This document shows positions 7,287 to 13,863 of a DNA stretch of 53,342 nucleotides, one piece after another (positions within the stretch are counted from its first letter, which is position 1; each line of letters opens with the position of its first letter). The notes beneath the pieces were generated by a model. That model saw nothing but the letters and a program-made list of their open reading frames with translations, was not told the DNA's origin and made no database searches. Position numbers and translations under genes: made by a program. Origin of the DNA: Actinomyces oricola (GTDB lineage: Bacteria > Actinomycetota > Actinomycetes > Actinomycetales > Actinomycetaceae); NCBI RefSeq assembly GCF_004104015.1, contig NZ_RYFV01000023.1, forward strand, positions 1 to 53,342, written 5' to 3'.

Positions 7287-8351
7287 GTGCCCGAGCTGCC
7301 CGAGGTCGAGTCCGTCCGCCGCGGCCTGGAGCGCCACCTGGCGGGGCGCACCATCGCCGGCGTCCAGGTCTTCCACCCCCGGCCGCTGCGCCGCCAGAGC
7401 GGAGGGCCCGACGCCTTCGCCCGAGCCGTGAGCGGGCGCACCATGACCGGTGCGGTGCGCCGCGGCAAACTCCTGTGGCTGCCCCTGGACGACGGCCGGG
7501 CCCTGGCCGCCCACCTGGGCATGAGCGGTCAGCTCCTGGTGCGCGGCACTCGCCCGCCGGCCGACGGCGAGCGGGCCCGCCGTCGGGCGCCCCTGGGGGC
7601 GGACGCCGAGCGGCCCGGCACCCGGGCCGACGGGCGGGGCACGCCGCTGCGGCCGGGGGCGCCGGGAGGGCCCGAGGACGCCCCCGGCGCCCCCGCGCCG
7701 GAGCGAGACCCCTGGCCCCGCCCGCGTCACCTGCGCGTCCGCCTCCACCTGGAGCCCGACGACGCCGACGCCCCCGGCGGGGCGGCCCTGGACTTCGTGG
7801 ACCAACGCATGTTCGGCGGCCTGCACGTCGTCGACCTGGTATCCACCGACGACGGTGCGCCGGGCGGACTCGGCTCCCCCCAAGCGCTCCTCCCCGCCGA
7901 CGCGACGCACATTGCCCGGGACCTGCTTGACCCCGACCTGGATGGCACCAAGACCATCGCCCTTATTCGGGCCTCGCGCCGCCCGATCAAGACTCTCCTG
8001 CTGGACCAGGGGATTGTCTCAGGGGTGGGCAATATCTACGCCGACGAGGGCCTGTGGGCCGCCTCCATCCACGGGCTGCGCCCAGGGCAGGCGCTGGGCC
8101 CGCTCGTGGCCGGGCGCCTCCTGGCCTCCACCGCCCAGGTCATGGAGCGCGCCCTGACAGCGGGCGGGACGAGCTTCGATGCCCTCTATGTCGACGCCGA
8201 GGGAACAGCCGGGTACTTCGCCCGCGAACTGGCCGCCTACGGTCGAGCGGGCCAGGAGTGCCGCCGCTGCAAGACAGTGCTGTGCGCCGAGACCATTGGC
8301 GGGCGCAGCCACGTCTTCTGCCCCCGCTGTCAAAGACGCCCGCGCCGCTGA
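7287..8351 (+). CDS. mutM: Formamidopyrimidine-DNA glycosylase (Fpg/MutM)
   Basis: A 354-residue bifunctional DNA glycosylase/AP lyase that removes 8-oxoguanine and formamidopyrimidines. The N-terminal Pro2 nucleophile and Glu3 are present in PELPEVESVRR. The conserved lysine is Lys61 in RRGKLLW. The C-terminal zinc finger has Cys325, Cys328, Cys345 and Cys348. The helix-two-turn-helix DQGIVSGVGNIYADE is intact. Compared with the usual length near 270-290, there is an extra segment of about 55 residues (roughly 88-147), rich in Pro, Gly, Arg and Ala, inside the N-terminal domain. The start is GTG; the gene should be translated together with rnc. Confidence 0.94.
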   Translation: MPELPEVESVRRGLERHLAGRTIAGVQVFHPRPLRRQSGGPDAFARAVSGRTMTGAVRRGKLLWLPLDDGRALAAHLGMSGQLLVRGTRPPADGERARRRAPLGADAERPGTRADGRGTPLRPGAPGGPEDAPGAPAPERDPWPRPRHLRVRLHLEPDDADAPGGAALDFVDQRMFGGLHVVDLVSTDDGAPGGLGSPQALLPADATHIARDLLDPDLDGTKTIALIRASRRPIKTLLLDQGIVSGVGNIYADEGLWAASIHGLRPGQALGPLVAGRLLASTAQVMERALTAGGTSFDALYVDAEGTAGYFARELAAYGRAGQECRRCKTVLCAETIGGRSHVFCPRCQRRPRR

Positions 8352-8391
8352 CCCGACCCGGCGCTCCCCGGCTCGGGCGCCAGCGGTCGGG
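8352..8391 (+). terminator. Stem-loop after mutM
   Basis: CCCGACC (8352-8358) pairs with GGTCGGG (8385-8391) and GGCGC with GCGCC inside it. The stem begins next to the mutM stop. There is no U-tract, which is common in GC-rich actinobacteria. Confidence 0.45.
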
Positions 8392-8453
8392 CGTGCGGGG
8401 TCGGGACGCGCCCGCACGGCAAATATGTGGTGCAGATCATAGATGACCGCCAA

Positions 8454-8482
8454 TCGACAAAGATATAGATGTTCTATATCAT
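8454..8482 (+). promoter_or_regulatory. Promoter with a perfect dyad operator for the EIIC-like operon
   Basis: TCGACA (8454-8459), a 17-base spacer and TATCAT (8477-8482) form a plausible sigma-70-type promoter. The spacer and -10 are covered by a perfect inverted repeat, GATATAGA-TGT-TCTATATC (8462-8480). Its position would let a bound dimer block RNA polymerase. The GntR-type regulator encoded at 11114 is the obvious candidate. The surrounding sequence is strikingly AT-rich for this genome. Confidence 0.6.
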
Positions 8483-8583
8483 CTAGTCTGCACTGGTCGA
8501 CAAGAGGGTCGGCGCCGGGCTGATCGCGGACCCGGGCCCGCCCTCCGGGTGCACAGTCAATGATGCGCGAAAGGTCAACTGCG

Positions 8584-10194
8584 ATGGTCAAAGAGGACGT
8601 CAAGCAGGTGTTGCACAGAATTGTGATCCTGGGAAGTAGTGGAGGGAATCTCCGCAGCCACGGCGGGAGCGATCCGGCCCGGCTGATCGCCGACACGAAG
8701 AAGCAGATCGACGCGGCGGGATTCATCCTGGACGACGTCCAGTTCGTTGGGGCGGAATCCTCTATGGATGGAATCTCGGCAAGCACTCCCGCCGAGCTGT
8801 GGGAGCTCAGGCAGGGCGCCCCCGTCGTGTCGGCGTCAGGAACCCTGGAGGAGGTCAATGCGAAGGCCCGCGAGCGCGATCGGCAGATCGCCGCCCGCGT
8901 GCGCGCCGGCGACATCTCCGGCCTCATCCTCATGAGCTGCGATCCCGACGACACCAATTCCCAGGCCATTGCCGCGGCGGCGCTAAAGGGCATCCCGGTC
9001 GTGGGCACGGGGGGAACCTCGATCGCCAAGGCGCAGTCGCTGGGGGCCAATGTGGTCGCCTCCTCGGGGACCACCGGCACGAACAGCGCCACAAGGGCCG
9101 TGGCGAACGTCTCGGGACTCGCCAAGGCGCTGGGCGTTAAGTACCGCCCCGTGCTCGGCTCCTCCTCGGCGGGGGGCGCGGCGCAGGACGAGGCCGCGTG
9201 GAGGCGGATCAGCATTCGCGGGATCATGGTGGGCAGCATCCCCGCGTTCATCTGCCTGGCCCTGGTCCTGGCTCTCAGCAAGATCCCGGTCCTGGGCGCC
9301 CTGACCGACGTCTTCGACCTTCTGATCGCGTCGCTGCCCATTGTCGTTGCGGCCGTCGCCGCACGAAAGATCTCCGGGCTCGACGAGGTCGGCCTCGTCG
9401 CCGGAGCCGTCGCCGGGATTCTCGCCGCGCCCGGAGGACTCCTGGGGGGCCTGGTCGCCGGAATCCTCTCCGGTCTCCTGGCGGCGTTCCTGATCAAGTG
9501 GACGCTGGCCAGTCACTTCCCCGCGACTACTGCGAATATTGTCACCGGGGCCCTGGGCGGCCTGATTCCCGGGCTCGTGGTCTACTACCTTCTGGCGCCA
9601 TTCACCGCCCTGCTCGGCGAGTGGGTCAAGACGGCCATTGAATGGGCGCTGGAGGTCAGCCCCCTCCTGGCGGGGGCGCTGGCCGGCCTGGCAATGTGGC
9701 CCTCCATTATTGGGGGCGTGTACCACTCGGTGATTCTGCCCCTGGTGCTGCTGGAGATGGGGCAGAAGGGGCACAGCTTCTTCGGCGCTATTGACATGGT
9801 GGCGCTGGTCATGACGTCGCTTGGAATCACCCTGGCCAATGTCGTCCGTCCCCGAACCAGTGGGGAGCGCGCACTTGCCGGCTCGGGGGCGGCCGTCAAC
9901 TTCTTCTTCGGCACGTTCGTCGAGTCCTCCTATCCCTTCATGTTCGGGGACAAGAAGATCTTCGCGACAGCGCTTCTGGCCGCCACGGCCGGCGGCATGG
10001 CGGTCGGCGCCACCGGGGTCGAGGCCTCCGCTTATCTTCCCGCGTTCCTGGCCCCGTTCATCTCCACCAATGCGGTGGGGCTGGTTCTGGCCATGCTGAC
10101 CTCATTCGCCATCGCGTTCGCCCTGACTTTCGCCACCAACACTATTCACCTCAAGCAAAGCAAGCAGAACGCCGCCGACCGGTCAGACGCCTGA
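8584..10194 (+). CDS. PTS EIIC-like membrane protein fused to an unassigned soluble N-terminal domain
   Basis: The protein has two parts. Residues 1-205 are soluble, with GSSGGNLRSHGGSDP at 17-31 and VVGTGGTSIAKAQSLGANV at 139-157; I cannot assign this domain. Residues 211-525 hold about ten hydrophobic segments resembling fructose-type EIIC permeases: Gly-rich helices (GGLLGGLVAGILSGLLAAFL) and a motif around Glu447 (FVESSYPFMFGDKKI) where EIIC proteins carry their substrate-binding (I/V)xE. No EIIA histidine or EIIB cysteine motif is evident. A phosphorylating PTS role is therefore unproven; it could be a sugar channel or use partners encoded elsewhere. ATG 8584 is preferred because GAAAGG lies nine bases upstream; ATGs at 8560 and 8563 lack this. 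Confidence 0.6.
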   Translation: MVKEDVKQVLHRIVILGSSGGNLRSHGGSDPARLIADTKKQIDAAGFILDDVQFVGAESSMDGISASTPAELWELRQGAPVVSASGTLEEVNAKARERDRQIAARVRAGDISGLILMSCDPDDTNSQAIAAAALKGIPVVGTGGTSIAKAQSLGANVVASSGTTGTNSATRAVANVSGLAKALGVKYRPVLGSSSAGGAAQDEAAWRRISIRGIMVGSIPAFICLALVLALSKIPVLGALTDVFDLLIASLPIVVAAVAARKISGLDEVGLVAGAVAGILAAPGGLLGGLVAGILSGLLAAFLIKWTLASHFPATTANIVTGALGGLIPGLVVYYLLAPFTALLGEWVKTAIEWALEVSPLLAGALAGLAMWPSIIGGVYHSVILPLVLLEMGQKGHSFFGAIDMVALVMTSLGITLANVVRPRTSGERALAGSGAAVNFFFGTFVESSYPFMFGDKKIFATALLAATAGGMAVGATGVEASAYLPAFLAPFISTNAVGLVLAMLTSFAIAFALTFATNTIHLKQSKQNAADRSDA

Positions 10195-10231
10195 GCGGCC
10201 CCCGACGGATACCGGAAAGGAAGACACGGAG

Positions 10232-11092
10232 ATGAACCATTACCAGACCCACGACATGGACCGCCGTCGGGCCGCAGCCATGGCCAAGGTCCGCGGGGCG
10301 ATCCGGGAGCACGGCGGGACCACGTTGCTGAGCACGGGGATCACCGCGGACGACGCCCGACTGGCCCGCGCCGTCATTGACACCGGCGTCAAAATGCTCG
10401 AGCCCAACCATCCGGCCATTGCGCTGGCCAGAGGGGTTCGCGGGGTCACGGACATGCACTCGGCTGAAAGCGTTCGGCACGAGGTGGAGCACGCCGAGCT
10501 CATCCGCGTGGTCAACGGGGTCCGCGCCGTCGCCGGCCCGGAGATCTTCATTACCGTGGGGATCCCCGGGGGATTCACGGAGGTGCAGCCGGTGGGGCTC
10601 GACGAGAGCACCTTCTTCGATCTGGCCGTTGCCGGTGCGGACGGGCTCCACACGCACAAATCGAGCCTTGAGGACCTGGAGTCCTGGGTGCGCGACGCCC
10701 ATCGGGCCGGCCTGACCGTGGACGCCTACATCGCCCATCCCGACGACCGTCACCCCTTCGGCATTGAGGCCGCCACCGCGCAGGAGGTGGCCCGCACGGC
10801 GCGCCGCATGGAGGATCTGGGCGTCGACATGATCGGACTCATGACGGGCATGTCCTACGGCGGGGCCGCCGCGGGGGAGATCCCCGCGCAGATCAAGGAG
10901 CGCCTGGCCGCCCTCGTCGAGACCGTCAGCGTCCCGACGCTGGCCGAGGGCGGCATCAATGTCACCAACTATGAGGCATTCCGGGGCACGGGGGTCAATG
11001 TCCTCGTGGTGGGGACCTCGTTCGACGACGTTGCCCGGGAGGCCGTCGCCCAGACAGCGAGACGGTACATCAGCGCCGAGAGCCGAGCCTGA
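10232..11092 (+). CDS. TIM-barrel protein of HisA/HisF/NanE-like fold, function unassigned
   Basis: A 286-residue soluble protein with the alternating strand/helix pattern of a (beta/alpha)8 barrel. Candidate phosphate-binding loops are the C-terminal LAEGGINVTNYEAF and VNVLVVGTSF. Other conserved-looking segments are VGIPGGFTEV, DGLHTHKSSLEDLE and MIGLMTGMSYGG. The layout suggests an aldolase or epimerase acting on a phosphorylated sugar or sugar acid, but the substrate cannot be read from the sequence. It lies 37 bases after the EIIC-like gene behind GGAAAGGAAG, so the two should be co-transcribed and it may process what that protein imports. It lacks the paired aspartates of HisA, so a histidine role is unlikely. 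Confidence 0.6.
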   Translation: MNHYQTHDMDRRRAAAMAKVRGAIREHGGTTLLSTGITADDARLARAVIDTGVKMLEPNHPAIALARGVRGVTDMHSAESVRHEVEHAELIRVVNGVRAVAGPEIFITVGIPGGFTEVQPVGLDESTFFDLAVAGADGLHTHKSSLEDLESWVRDAHRAGLTVDAYIAHPDDRHPFGIEAATAQEVARTARRMEDLGVDMIGLMTGMSYGGAAAGEIPAQIKERLAALVETVSVPTLAEGGINVTNYEAFRGTGVNVLVVGTSFDDVAREAVAQTARRYISAESRA

Positions 11093-11100
11093 ACCTCTGC

Positions 11101-11113
11101 GATAATCCGACGC
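11101..11113 (+). promoter_or_regulatory. Probable leaderless promoter of the GntR gene (-10 GATAAT)
   Basis: GATAAT at 11101-11106 lies seven bases before the ATG at 11114, with no Shine-Dalgarno between. It overlaps the end of the upstream operon, so the regulator may also have its own transcript. Confidence 0.5.
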
Positions 11114-11890
11114 ATGGCAGGCGTGAAGGGCTCCCAAAGGTCGCTCCACGAGCGGATCTATCTTGAGATCAAGGCGGATATTGAGCAGGGCGCGCTCGCG
11201 GCGGACACCCAGCTGCCAACCGAGCTGGAGTTGGCCCAGAAGTATTCCGTCAGCCGTGGCACGGCACGGCAGGCGATCACGCGCCTGGTCAACGAGGGGC
11301 TTGTGGAGCGGATGGCCGGCCGGGGGACTTTCGTGACGCCGCGCAGGCTCAATTACACTGCGCACGAGTTGCTCGGCTTTTCTCAGCAGATCCGGGATGC
11401 GGGGCTCACTCCCAGCTCGGAATTGGTCGATCTGGGACTGGTGGGAAACACGAATGGCGAGTTCGGTCCCCGAGTCGAGCGGCTCGTGCGCGTCGAACGG
11501 GTTCGCAAGGCGAACGGTGAACCGGTGGCCCTCGAGGAGTTGTTCCTCCCGTGGCCCCGGTTCGCCGGGCTCCGGGACATGGATGTCGAGGAAATAGCGA
11601 TCTACGACACGCTGGAGACCGTGTTCGGCGTCAGGCTCGGCTCAGGCGAATTCACTATCGACCTGGTGGAACTGGACGACAGGAGGGCCGGGCTGCTCAT
11701 GGAGCGGGCCGGGGCGGCGGCATTCCTCATGCACGGCGTCGTGTCGGACGACAACGCTCAGCCGATCGTTCGGGTTCGATGCTATTACCGGCGCTCACGG
11801 TACTCCTTCCAGTTCACAGTCCGGCGCGAACAGCACGACGCCCCCGGGTCCATGACTCCCAGGCCGGTCATGACCGGCGTGGACTCGTAA
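11114..11890 (+). CDS. GntR-family (HutC/UTRA) transcriptional regulator
   Basis: A 258-residue regulator. Residues 8-75 form the winged helix-turn-helix of the GntR family, including QLPTELELAQKYSVSRGTARQAI and the wing MAGRGTFVT. Residues about 90-240 match a UTRA ligand-binding domain, which senses small sugars or their phosphates (PVALEELFLPW, RCYYRRSRYSFQF). It most likely represses the upstream EIIC-like/TIM-barrel operon through the dyad at 8462-8480 and is released by the transported sugar. This assignment rests on context and family knowledge. The gene follows the TIM-barrel gene by 21 bases. Confidence 0.9.
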   Translation: MAGVKGSQRSLHERIYLEIKADIEQGALAADTQLPTELELAQKYSVSRGTARQAITRLVNEGLVERMAGRGTFVTPRRLNYTAHELLGFSQQIRDAGLTPSSELVDLGLVGNTNGEFGPRVERLVRVERVRKANGEPVALEELFLPWPRFAGLRDMDVEEIAIYDTLETVFGVRLGSGEFTIDLVELDDRRAGLLMERAGAAAFLMHGVVSDDNAQPIVRVRCYYRRSRYSFQFTVRREQHDAPGSMTPRPVMTGVDS

Positions 11891-11916
11891 CTGACGCAAA
11901 ACAAGTCATATTGTTT

Positions 11917-11946
11917 GAACATCCAGAATGTTCTAAAATTCTATAT
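11917..11946. promoter_or_regulatory. Inverted repeat and shared ATGTTCTA motif downstream of the GntR gene
   Basis: GAACAT (11917-11922) and ATGTTC (11928-11933) form an inverted repeat around CCAGA. The octamer ATGTTCTA (11928-11935) also occurs in the operator at 8469-8476, and TTCTATAT occurs at both 11939-11946 and 8472-8479. This may be a second binding site for the GntR regulator or a remnant. The AT-rich patch contrasts with the surroundings. Confidence 0.35.
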
Positions 11947-12070
11947 TTCTGGTTCCGGGGTGGCGCGAGCACTCCCGCCGCCCCGGCAGCGGAGCCACTG
12001 GTGGTCGCCGCCGGGCCCTGGTGCGGGCCGGTTACCCGGCGCCGTCGATGCCGGCCGGATGGACCCGGAT

Positions 12071-12100
12071 GGACATGGATGGACATGGATGGACATGGAG
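12071..12100. repeat. Three tandem 10-bp repeats upstream of hisC
   Basis: GGACATGGAT is repeated at 12071-12080 and 12081-12090, with a third copy differing in the last base (12091-12100). A degenerate GGACCCGGAT copy precedes them at 12061. The array lies 24 bases before the hisC -10 element. Confidence 0.8.
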
Positions 12101-12123
12101 GCGGTGGTGGGCGCCGGCCTGCT

Positions 12124-12136
12124 TACACTTTGGCTC
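12124..12136 (+). promoter_or_regulatory. Probable leaderless promoter of hisC (-10 TACACT)
   Basis: TACACT at 12124-12129 is followed by seven bases and the GTG at 12137. No ribosome binding site precedes the start. Confidence 0.55.
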
Positions 12137-13267
12137 GTGAGCACACTTCCTCTTCGGCCAGGTCTTGAAGGCGAGACGCCCTACGGCGCACCTGAGCTCG
12201 AGGTGCCTGTGCGCCTCAACGTCAATGAGAACCCGTACCCGCCCTCGCAGGGTGTTATCGCCGACATTGCTCAAGCGGTCACGAAAGCCGCTGCCGGACT
12301 CAACCGTTACCCGGATCGGGACTTCCCCGCCCTCAGGCAGGCCCTGGCGGACTACTTGGCCGTCGAGTCCAAGGTGCGCCTGTCCTGGGAGCGCATCTGG
12401 GCGGCCAATGGCTCCAACGAGGTCATGCTTCACATCCTCCAGGCCTTCGGCGGGCCAGGACGTGCTTGCCTGTCCTTCACCCCCTCCTACTCCATGTACC
12501 CCGAGTACGCCCGCGACACCCTGACCACCTACGTCGCCGCGCCCCGCCGCGAAGACTTCACCCTCGACCTCGACGCCGTGGCCACCGCCATTGACCGCGA
12601 GCGCCCCGCCGTCATTCTGCTGGCCAGCCCCAACAACCCCACCGGCACCGGACTGGAACTGGGCGCCGTCCAGTCCATCCTCGACGCCGCGCGCGGCCGC
12701 GGCCCGGCGACCACCGCCGGCGAGCCCACCGACTGCATCGTCGTCATTGATGAGGCCTACGGGGAGTTTCGCCGCGCGGGCGTCCCCAGCGCCCTGGAGC
12801 TCCTGGACGCCAACCCTCACCTGGCGGTATCCCGCACCATGAGCAAGGCCTTCGGTATGGCGGGGCTGCGCCTGGGGTACCTGGCGGCCTGCGCCGAAGT
12901 CGTGAATGCGCTGCGCGTGGTCCGCCTGCCCTACCACCTCTCCTCAGTCACCCAGGCCACCGCTCTGGCGGCCCTGTCCCACCGCGAGGAGCTCATGAGC
13001 CAGGTCGCCTCCCTGCGCGCCCAACGCGACGTCCTGGTGCCCTGGCTGCGCGAGCAGGGCCTGACCGCCTACGACTCCGACGCCAACTTCGTCCTCTTCG
13101 GGCCCTTCGAGGACCGCCAGGACGTCTGGAGGCGCCTGCTCGATCGCGGCGTTCTCATCCGCGTGGTCGGCCCGACCGGGTACCTTCGGGTGTGCATCGG
13201 GACACCGCAGGAGATGGAGCAGTTCCGCTCCGCACTCGTGACCGTCATAAAGGAGACCCGTCCATGA
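12137..13267 (+). CDS. hisC: Histidinol-phosphate aminotransferase
   Basis: A 376-residue class II PLP-dependent aminotransferase that converts imidazole acetol phosphate to histidinol phosphate in histidine synthesis. The N-terminal [12 protein letters not shown] matches the substrate-binding opening of HisC. The PLP-forming lysine is Lys237 in [30 protein letters not shown] and [10 protein letters not shown] are the cofactor-binding segments. The open frame extends 74 codons further upstream, but that part runs through the tandem repeats and is not conserved, so GTG 12137 is taken. ATGA overlap with hisB indicates translational coupling. This cluster has no hisD upstream, unlike many actinobacteria. 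Confidence 0.93.
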
Positions 13268-13863
13268 GCCGCACTGCCCGCATCGAACGCACCACCAGCG
13301 AGTCCAGTGTCGTTGTCGAGATCAACCTCGACGGCACCGGCACAACGGACATTGAGACGACAGTCCCCTTCTACAACCACATGCTCACGGCACTGGGCAA
13401 GCACTCCCTGATCGACCTGAGCGTGCGCGCCTCAGGCGACACTGACATTGACGTCCACCACACTGTGGAGGACACCGCCATCTGCTTCGGCCAGGCCCTG
13501 CGCCTGGCCCTGGGGGACAAGCGCGGCATTAAACGTTTCGGGGACGCCACCGTCCCCCTTGACGAGGCCCTGGCCCACGCCGTCGTCGATCTCTCGGGCC
13601 GCCCCTACCTGGTCCACGAGGGGGAGTCGGAGGCCTTCGTCCACCACCTCATCGGCGGGCACTTCACCGGCTCCATGGTTCGCCACGTCCTGGAGGCCAT
13701 TGCCTACCACGCCCACATCTGCCTGCATGTGCGCGTGCTCTCAGGCCGCGACCCCCACCACATTGCTGAGGCCGAGTTCAAGGCCTTGGCCCGCGCCCTG
13801 CGCGCCGCCGTCGAACCCGACCCTCGCGTGACCTCCATCCCCTCAACCAAGGGAACCCTGTAA
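13264..13863 (+). CDS. hisB: Imidazoleglycerol-phosphate dehydratase
   Basis: This 199-residue enzyme dehydrates imidazole glycerol phosphate to imidazole acetol phosphate. The two manganese-binding HHxxE-type motifs are visible: [17 protein letters not shown] and [31 protein letters not shown] and the C-terminal SIPSTKGTL are also diagnostic. Length is typical of the monofunctional enzyme. ATG 13264 overlaps the hisC stop and has AGGAG upstream. Confidence 0.96.

Follow-up and report, generated by a model that had tools for sequence, protein, structure and literature searches.

A conserved gene pair encoding an EIIC-like permease fusion and a TIM-barrel protein, present also in hosts without detectable EI and HPr and linked in some to histidine genes

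The window analyzed here, a 53,342-nucleotide stretch of Actinomyces oricola DNA (contig NZ_RYFV01000023.1, assembly GCF_004104015.1), contains three plus-strand genes at 8584-11890 that encode a fusion of a soluble N-terminal domain (N-domain) to an EIIC-type membrane domain, a TIM-barrel protein, and a GntR/UTRA transcription regulator. The fusion and TIM-barrel genes form a two-gene core that is kept across phyla, the fusion possesses no conserved EIIA or EIIB phosphorylation site, and some hosts of the core yielded no match to EI or HPr of the phosphotransferase system (PTS). Independence of the unit from the PTS is well supported for at least some hosts. The best explanation of the unit, which we propose tentatively, is that it combines a PTS-independent importer with a TIM-barrel enzyme of the phosphate-binding type, both serving a small metabolite that is possibly of the imidazole type. 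A preliminary description of the window had already placed the three-gene set here, beginning at 8454, which is the first base of the predicted promoter, and had suggested that it could be a self-contained uptake and catabolism unit. The conservation of the core across phyla and the hosts lacking both EI and HPr (8/56) agree with that proposal; the part it gave the N-domain in phosphorylation is not supported.

The fusion gene (8584-10194) encodes 536 amino acids from the ATG at 8584, or 544 from an alternative, upstream ATG at 8560. The TIM-barrel gene (10232..11092) follows after 37 bases and the regulator gene (11114..11890) after a further 21. Fusion sequences were aligned for the window and 54 of 73 references, with near-duplicates and L002 omitted. 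The membrane domain of the window protein (9190..10194) matched the beta-glucoside EIIC model TIGR01995 best (5.6e-13) and the fructose EIIC model more weakly (3.8e-5), so that the earlier assignment to EIIC stands and its fructose type does not. Among the 55 aligned members, weak matches were to the sucrose EIIC model in 42 and the beta-glucoside EIIC model in 41. Profile-profile comparison with hhalign aligned the membrane domain with EIIC-bearing proteins over 315 columns (97.6% probability, E 3.5e-12); the partners, picked by frame length within the same genus, were ten long proteins bearing an EIIC, one of which (L029) coincides with a PF02378 match. H389 and E455 are conserved, and their equivalents in known EIIC structures bind sugar hydroxyls. 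Judged by these profiles, the membrane domain is a remote EIIC of the glucose superfamily. A non-PTS transporter, which the preliminary description had named as a refuting outcome, was rejected, as only EIICs recur as transporters among the families shown. The fusion thus shares with the glucose/beta-glucoside PTS EIICs (TIGR01995, TIGR00852; PF02378) the 315-column membrane domain and the conserved His and Glu. It differs from them in lacking an EIIA/EIIB site, in bearing another N-domain, in scoring under every curated cut-off (window protein), and in being present also in hosts that gave no EI or HPr match.

The N-domain (8584..9189) is indeed a soluble domain of about 200 residues, as had been proposed; an AlphaFold2 model built from the 55 sequences predicts an alpha/beta fold (pLDDT, 89.7; pTM, 0.88). 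SSGG, D70, N100, D128, N133, GTGG, SGTT, and R179 are invariant in the alignment. In the numbering of the trimmed model, SSGG, the residues S118, D120, and N125, GTGG, and SGTT lie right after strands, and the invariant N92 lies in a helix. The placement of the invariant stretches right after strands suggests that they form one binding pocket in the model. Within the N-domain, every His or Cys column is conserved in at most 18 of the 55 sequences and, because of this, the domain is not a canonical EIIA or EIIB; neither the phospho-His of EIIA nor the phospho-Cys/His of EIIB that mark a PTS enzyme II is conserved there. The possibility of an EIIA or EIIB variant was rejected on the same ground and because the domain matches no EIIA/EIIB family, in agreement with the earlier remark that no such motifs are visible. 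Strong matches to the N-domain were found only in such fusions, and the idea of a separate family was dropped: 398 genomes from the phylum of G471 yielded three strong matches, all in fusion-sized frames, and three marginal ones, and 396 genomes from the phylum of A. oricola yielded its own genome and one marginal match containing a stop.

If the N-domain were a novel domain acting as a kinase or phosphoryl donor, the fusion would be a self-contained group translocator, an idea close to the earlier suggestion that the domain replaces the PTS phosphorylation partners. The invariant Gly/Ser/Thr loops after strands resemble a phosphate or nucleotide site, weak matches to the MGS-like family occur in 8/55 sequences, the TIM barrel is of the phosphate-binding type, and no kinase occurs among the identified neighbor clusters. 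However, the matches shown include no kinase family, His and Cys are not conserved, and no catalytic or phosphorylation site was found. Weak matches to Peripla_BP_4 (PF13407; 15/55, best 1e-6) suit a binding domain equally; a single-sequence hhalign comparison of the N-domain with one substrate-binding protein gave 0.2%. We consider a phosphorylating N-domain very improbable.

To delineate the unit in other genomes, named genomes were scanned with the TIM barrel, giving 90 relatives; 80 were retained as loci and 10 were not. A gene-neighborhood search had been recommended in the preliminary description, and its outcome bears out the two-gene core: the fusion lies close to the TIM barrel in 75/80 loci, so the grouping is more than chance. 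Within the 75, the fusion is cut by the contig start in two (L050 and L056) and split over two frames in one (L065). The five remaining loci, in which no fusion was found, are L064, L074, L076, L109, and L112; L074 and L109 are near contig ends. The fusion loci come from Actinomycetota, Bacillota, Chloroflexota, Enterobacterales, Spirochaetota, Fusobacteriota, Planctomycetota, and bins labelled Mycoplasmatota. Among 36 congeners searched, the full fusion occurs in one besides the genome of A. oricola (G021, 72% identity), and fusion plus TIM barrel are present in 3/5,426 Escherichia coli genomes. Neighbor clusters with members in at least eight loci were identified by Pfam searches of representatives. 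The GntR cluster has members in 37/80 loci and a DeoR cluster in 24/80; a Cof-type HAD phosphatase cluster is present in 18/80, all of them Enterobacterales (18/19 Enterobacterales loci). Complete EII permease operons with GntR or DeoR regulators likewise unite a regulator, a permease, and a catabolic enzyme, but the unit comprises two core genes, and its core lacks phosphotransfer domains.

EI (PF05524) and HPr (PF00381) were searched for in 56 hosts, namely, the genomes of 54 loci, A. oricola (G000), and G021. EI was found in 47/56 hosts and HPr in 48/56; EI was not found in nine and HPr in eight, and the same eight lack both (G454/L037, G455/L038, G457/L041, G458/L043, G472/L080, G486/L101, G489/L106, and G494/L055). 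Two of the eight are isolates, Tissierella praeacuta DSM 18095 (G457) and Longilinea arvoryzae KOME-1 (G486), in both of which HisB, HisD, and HisG were all found by the same method as a control. In the ninth genome (G499/L090), EI alone was not found and one PF02378 match scored above cut-off. EIIA_2 (PF00359) was not found in the nine genomes without EI, nor was any PF02378 match above cut-off found in the eight without EI and HPr; one EIIA family and one EIIC family were covered by these searches, other EIIA, EIIB, and EIIC families not being searched.

These hosts bear on whether the fusion could be a genuine PTS permease, served in trans by borrowed EIIA and EIIB wherever a PTS exists. 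The EIIC fold with its conserved Glu and His would fit such a permease, and several facts count against PTS independence: EI is present in 47 of the 56 hosts, including A. oricola, whose genome also has HPr, EIIA_2, and eight PF02378 EIICs, so that coupling to the PTS is possible there; six of the eight genomes without EI and HPr are metagenome-assembled and perhaps incomplete, which weakens the absence, completeness being reported for none of the genomes reached through loci; and the searches covered only the two enzyme II families named above. Borrowing in trans is difficult to reconcile, however, with the hosts that have neither EI nor HPr and no EIIA_2, and with the lack of EIIA and EIIB among the identified neighbor clusters, which are those of at least eight loci. 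We regard it as quite unlikely, and transport by the fusion as probably independent of the PTS.

The TIM barrel of the window is 60% identical to PDB entry 4ml9 over nearly the full length (367.8 bits, 2.8e-109) and, by this full-length similarity, belongs to the same family, confirming the earlier view of a phosphate-binding-type TIM barrel co-directional with the permease. We take 4ml9 to be a structural genomics protein of Sebaldella termitidis; its structure file names the product only "Uncharacterized protein," and no paper naming the entry was found in the open-access literature searched. Weak matches to ThiE- and HPS-type profiles were present in 48/48 TIM-barrel members, and profile matches also touch hexulose-phosphate synthase, HisA, NanE, and class II aldolases, weakly. 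Polar positions kept in at least 95% of the 48 number 39, of which 19 are His, Asp, or Glu. With HisA/HisF, ThiE, hexulose-phosphate synthase, and NanE the family shares the C-terminal phosphate-binding end, but the matches mostly end before the front half. The TIM barrel probably acts on a phosphorylated substrate. Identity with HisA, HisF, ThiE, or NanE proper was rejected, the scores being far under the cut-offs: the window protein scores 18.2 bits to HisA versus a 243-bit cut-off, the best of the 48 members reach 8.5e-9 for HisA and 4.1e-5 for HisF, and a single-sequence comparison with HisA gave 13% probability over 51 columns.

In the window, the regulator gene is followed on the plus strand by hisC (12137..13267; NF002877, 561 bits versus a cut-off of 409), a possible neighboring target, and by hisB, encoding imidazoleglycerol-phosphate dehydratase (13264..13863; NF002110, 339 bits versus a cut-off of 266). 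The latter is the single HisB match in the A. oricola genome. Besides the window, HisB lies beside the unit in 13/80 loci. In six loci of a Lachnospiraceae-like clade, HisB starts 11 to 13 bases past the GntR gene; in L096, the unit is located between hisZ (named by eye), hisG, and hisD on one side and hisB and hisIE on the other. In L076, a hisB-TIM pair without the permease in the fetched stretch lies ∼10 kb away from a cluster of his genes (hisZ-like, hisG, hisD, hisC, hisH, hisA, and a hisF-like start) that has no hisB in the part read. On the TIM-barrel tree, where L073 and L082 were scored as unlinked although their stretches end right after the TIM barrel, the hisB label changes five times, four of these being forced by well-supported branches. 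We read this as about three origins of hisB linkage: actinobacterial, Fermentithermobacillaceae-like, and Lachnospiraceae-like. As a separate observation, HisIE of two Lachnospiraceae loci (L096:8956-10335 and L081:4423-5715) carries an N-terminal HisF/WbuZ-like stretch of half length.

HisB was searched for in 45 genomes (those of 43 loci, A. oricola, and G021; the genome of L095 was not among them) and HisD and HisG in 26. The unit-linked HisB is the only copy in 10/12 of the searched genomes that have one, counting the two pieces of one frame in G452 as a single copy; a further copy is present in G482 and a further fragment in G479. In three metagenome-assembled genomes (G452, G454, and G455), hisG and hisD were not found and the sole HisB lies in the unit. 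These three HisB proteins are divergent and retain HHxxED, HHxxE, and the Arg and Lys positions, whose roles we take from imidazoleglycerol-phosphate dehydratase structures. The HisB equivalog cut-off is passed by the copies of the window, L033, and L076, and the L037 copy scores under all cut-offs. A second histidine gene is found in Saccharopolyspora (L034), where HutH, histidine ammonia-lyase, is encoded between the TIM barrel and the fusion and scores above the equivalog cut-off.

The regulator passes the Pfam cut-offs for both GntR (1.5e-20) and UTRA (7.2e-22); it has the winged helix-turn-helix and the UTRA sensor of the HutC/UTRA branch of the GntR family, as anticipated from its description as a sensing regulator co-directional with the permease. 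Upstream of the fusion gene, TCGACA-17 nt-TATCAT (8454..8482, plus strand) matches the sigma-70 consensus at 10/12 positions and is a candidate promoter by consensus match, not proof; it is the sole such match in 8300-12250 (shuffled sequence mean, 0.4). The spacer of this promoter includes the predicted operator AAAGATATAGATGTTC (8459..8474, plus strand), which has one mismatch to the pattern AAAGRTATANATNTTT, derived from sites upstream of units in the window, L002, L033, and L034. Related sites with one to three mismatches precede the fusion in G021, L033, and L034. The site at 8459 is the only place with two or fewer mismatches in the A. oricola genome, and all seven such places in four actinobacterial genomes (18.5 Mb) lie within unit loci (7/7); since the pattern was built from unit sites, this clustering reflects rarity elsewhere rather than discovery. 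A second, weaker operator-like site with three mismatches (11935..11950, minus strand) lies ∼190 bases upstream of hisC, and these two are the only places with three or fewer mismatches in the 53-kb window (0.06 expected). Over the whole A. oricola genome the pattern gave nine forward and five reverse matches, versus four and four for the reversed-pattern control. In L034, a copy without mismatch lies 19 bases before the start of hutH; it had been noticed visually before the pattern was settled. The stretch from the GntR gene to hisC in the window also includes an A+T-rich patch (11891-11960; 37% G+C versus 70% in the window) and a short repeat of ATGGATGGAC-like units (12060-12100).

Considering the his and hut neighbors, we lean slightly toward a functional link of the unit to histidine or imidazole metabolism, a tie that is not universal. 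Several observations weigh against that reading. In 14/45 hosts HisB was not matched at all, which excludes it as a general step; 67/80 loci, including all Enterobacterales, lack hisB in the fetched flank, some being cut by contig ends. In the congener G021, the unit lies apart from hisC/hisB, and the his region of that genome yielded no operator-like site. The site upstream of hisC in the window is one of 11 three-mismatch places across the genome and had been picked out visually before the pattern was settled. The three genomes without hisG and hisD are metagenome-assembled, which makes the absence weaker, and the profile matches of the TIM barrel are weak and mostly confined to the shared phosphate-binding end. 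Separately, a histidine T-box or riboswitch next to the unit was not found in the 20/80 loci searched at Rfam gathering scores; one T-box occurs in L035, on the minus strand 3.4 kb from the fusion.

An alternative is an ordinary sugar or polyol uptake unit, in which a PTS-independent permease serves a TIM-barrel aldolase or epimerase and the his/hut neighbors reflect chance or genome position. It would account for the many loci without hisB, for the Cof-type HAD in 18/19 Enterobacterales loci and the DeoR in 24 loci, typical of sugar-phosphate operons, for the profile matches to hexulose-phosphate synthase, NanE, and class II aldolases, and for the retention of H389 and E455. We nevertheless find it rather unlikely: HisB recurs with about three origins, also in the three genomes without hisG/hisD matches, and HutH has the same operator. 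The HisB and HutH linkage was not foreseen in the preliminary description and points away from a plain sugar unit.

According to the importer model that we prefer, the core would be a two-gene uptake-and-conversion module. The permease, with its glucose-superfamily EIIC fold, would probably keep the elevator movement and would not be driven by a phosphotransferase chain. The N-domain, probably cytosolic, would bind a ligand in its conserved polar pocket for gating or capture, with no phosphate relay, and the TIM barrel would next act on a phosphorylated small molecule. The GntR/UTRA protein, probably a repressor with its operator in the promoter, would turn the unit on in response to substrate or product and may in some hosts also control a histidine gene (hisB, hisC, or hutH). 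On this view, an imidazole- or histidine-related substrate is more likely than a common sugar. That imidazole-glycerol phosphate itself is the substrate or product seems unlikely to us. The furthest that the HisB data can be taken is to its conversion: the PTS-fold permease and the TIM barrel would form a new route that imports an imidazole-type compound and interconverts it with imidazole-glycerol phosphate, in one direction or the other, and HisB would pass the product on to histidine or, in hosts without histidine synthesis, toward breakdown. This route is improbable, as is the associated reaction, in which the TIM barrel would make or split the bond to glyceraldehyde 3-phosphate; the tryptophan-synthase alpha subunit, acting with indole, is the parallel we propose for a TIM barrel acting with imidazole.

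EIIC proteins are described as phosphorylation-coupled transporters in PMC6048161. A family that retains the EIIC fold without EIIA/EIIB sites, has a different soluble domain, and is present in hosts lacking any EI or HPr match would show a group translocator turning into another kind of transporter. The unit may be an undescribed uptake route; it spans many phyla, yet the two core proteins of the window reach no Pfam or NCBIfam cut-off. Searches of the open-access literature for 4ML9, EIIC without PTS, and hisB with PTS/GntR found nothing on this unit. The link to histidine genes is new and, together with the three genomes without hisG and hisD, offers a testable case for a new way into or out of the histidine pathway.

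Individual loci show further variation. The broken fusion of Tepidanaerobacter DTU063 is split over two frames (L065:1816-3349), and a Leptolinea bin encodes a longer fusion of 559 amino acids in which the EIIC matches fall in two parts, as if by insertion (L106:5306-6985). The TIM barrel is broken in a Nostoc bin (L112:6950-8051), and Nostoc plasmid pn1 carries a TIM barrel (L146:5962-6906) with no permease- or regulator-like frame among its listed neighbors. Spread of the unit by plasmids was not found: neither P0001 nor the Yersinia fusion had a plasmid match, and no plasmid carried a matched fusion. In E. coli, HAD and DeoR genes follow the core in both genomes whose annotation was inspected, where the PGAP product names of the core are "PTS sugar transporter" and "histidine biosynthesis protein." The unit of L144 and L145, two E. 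coli genomes, lies between a slipin gene and yjbD, with a sorbose-type PTS region a few kilobases away.

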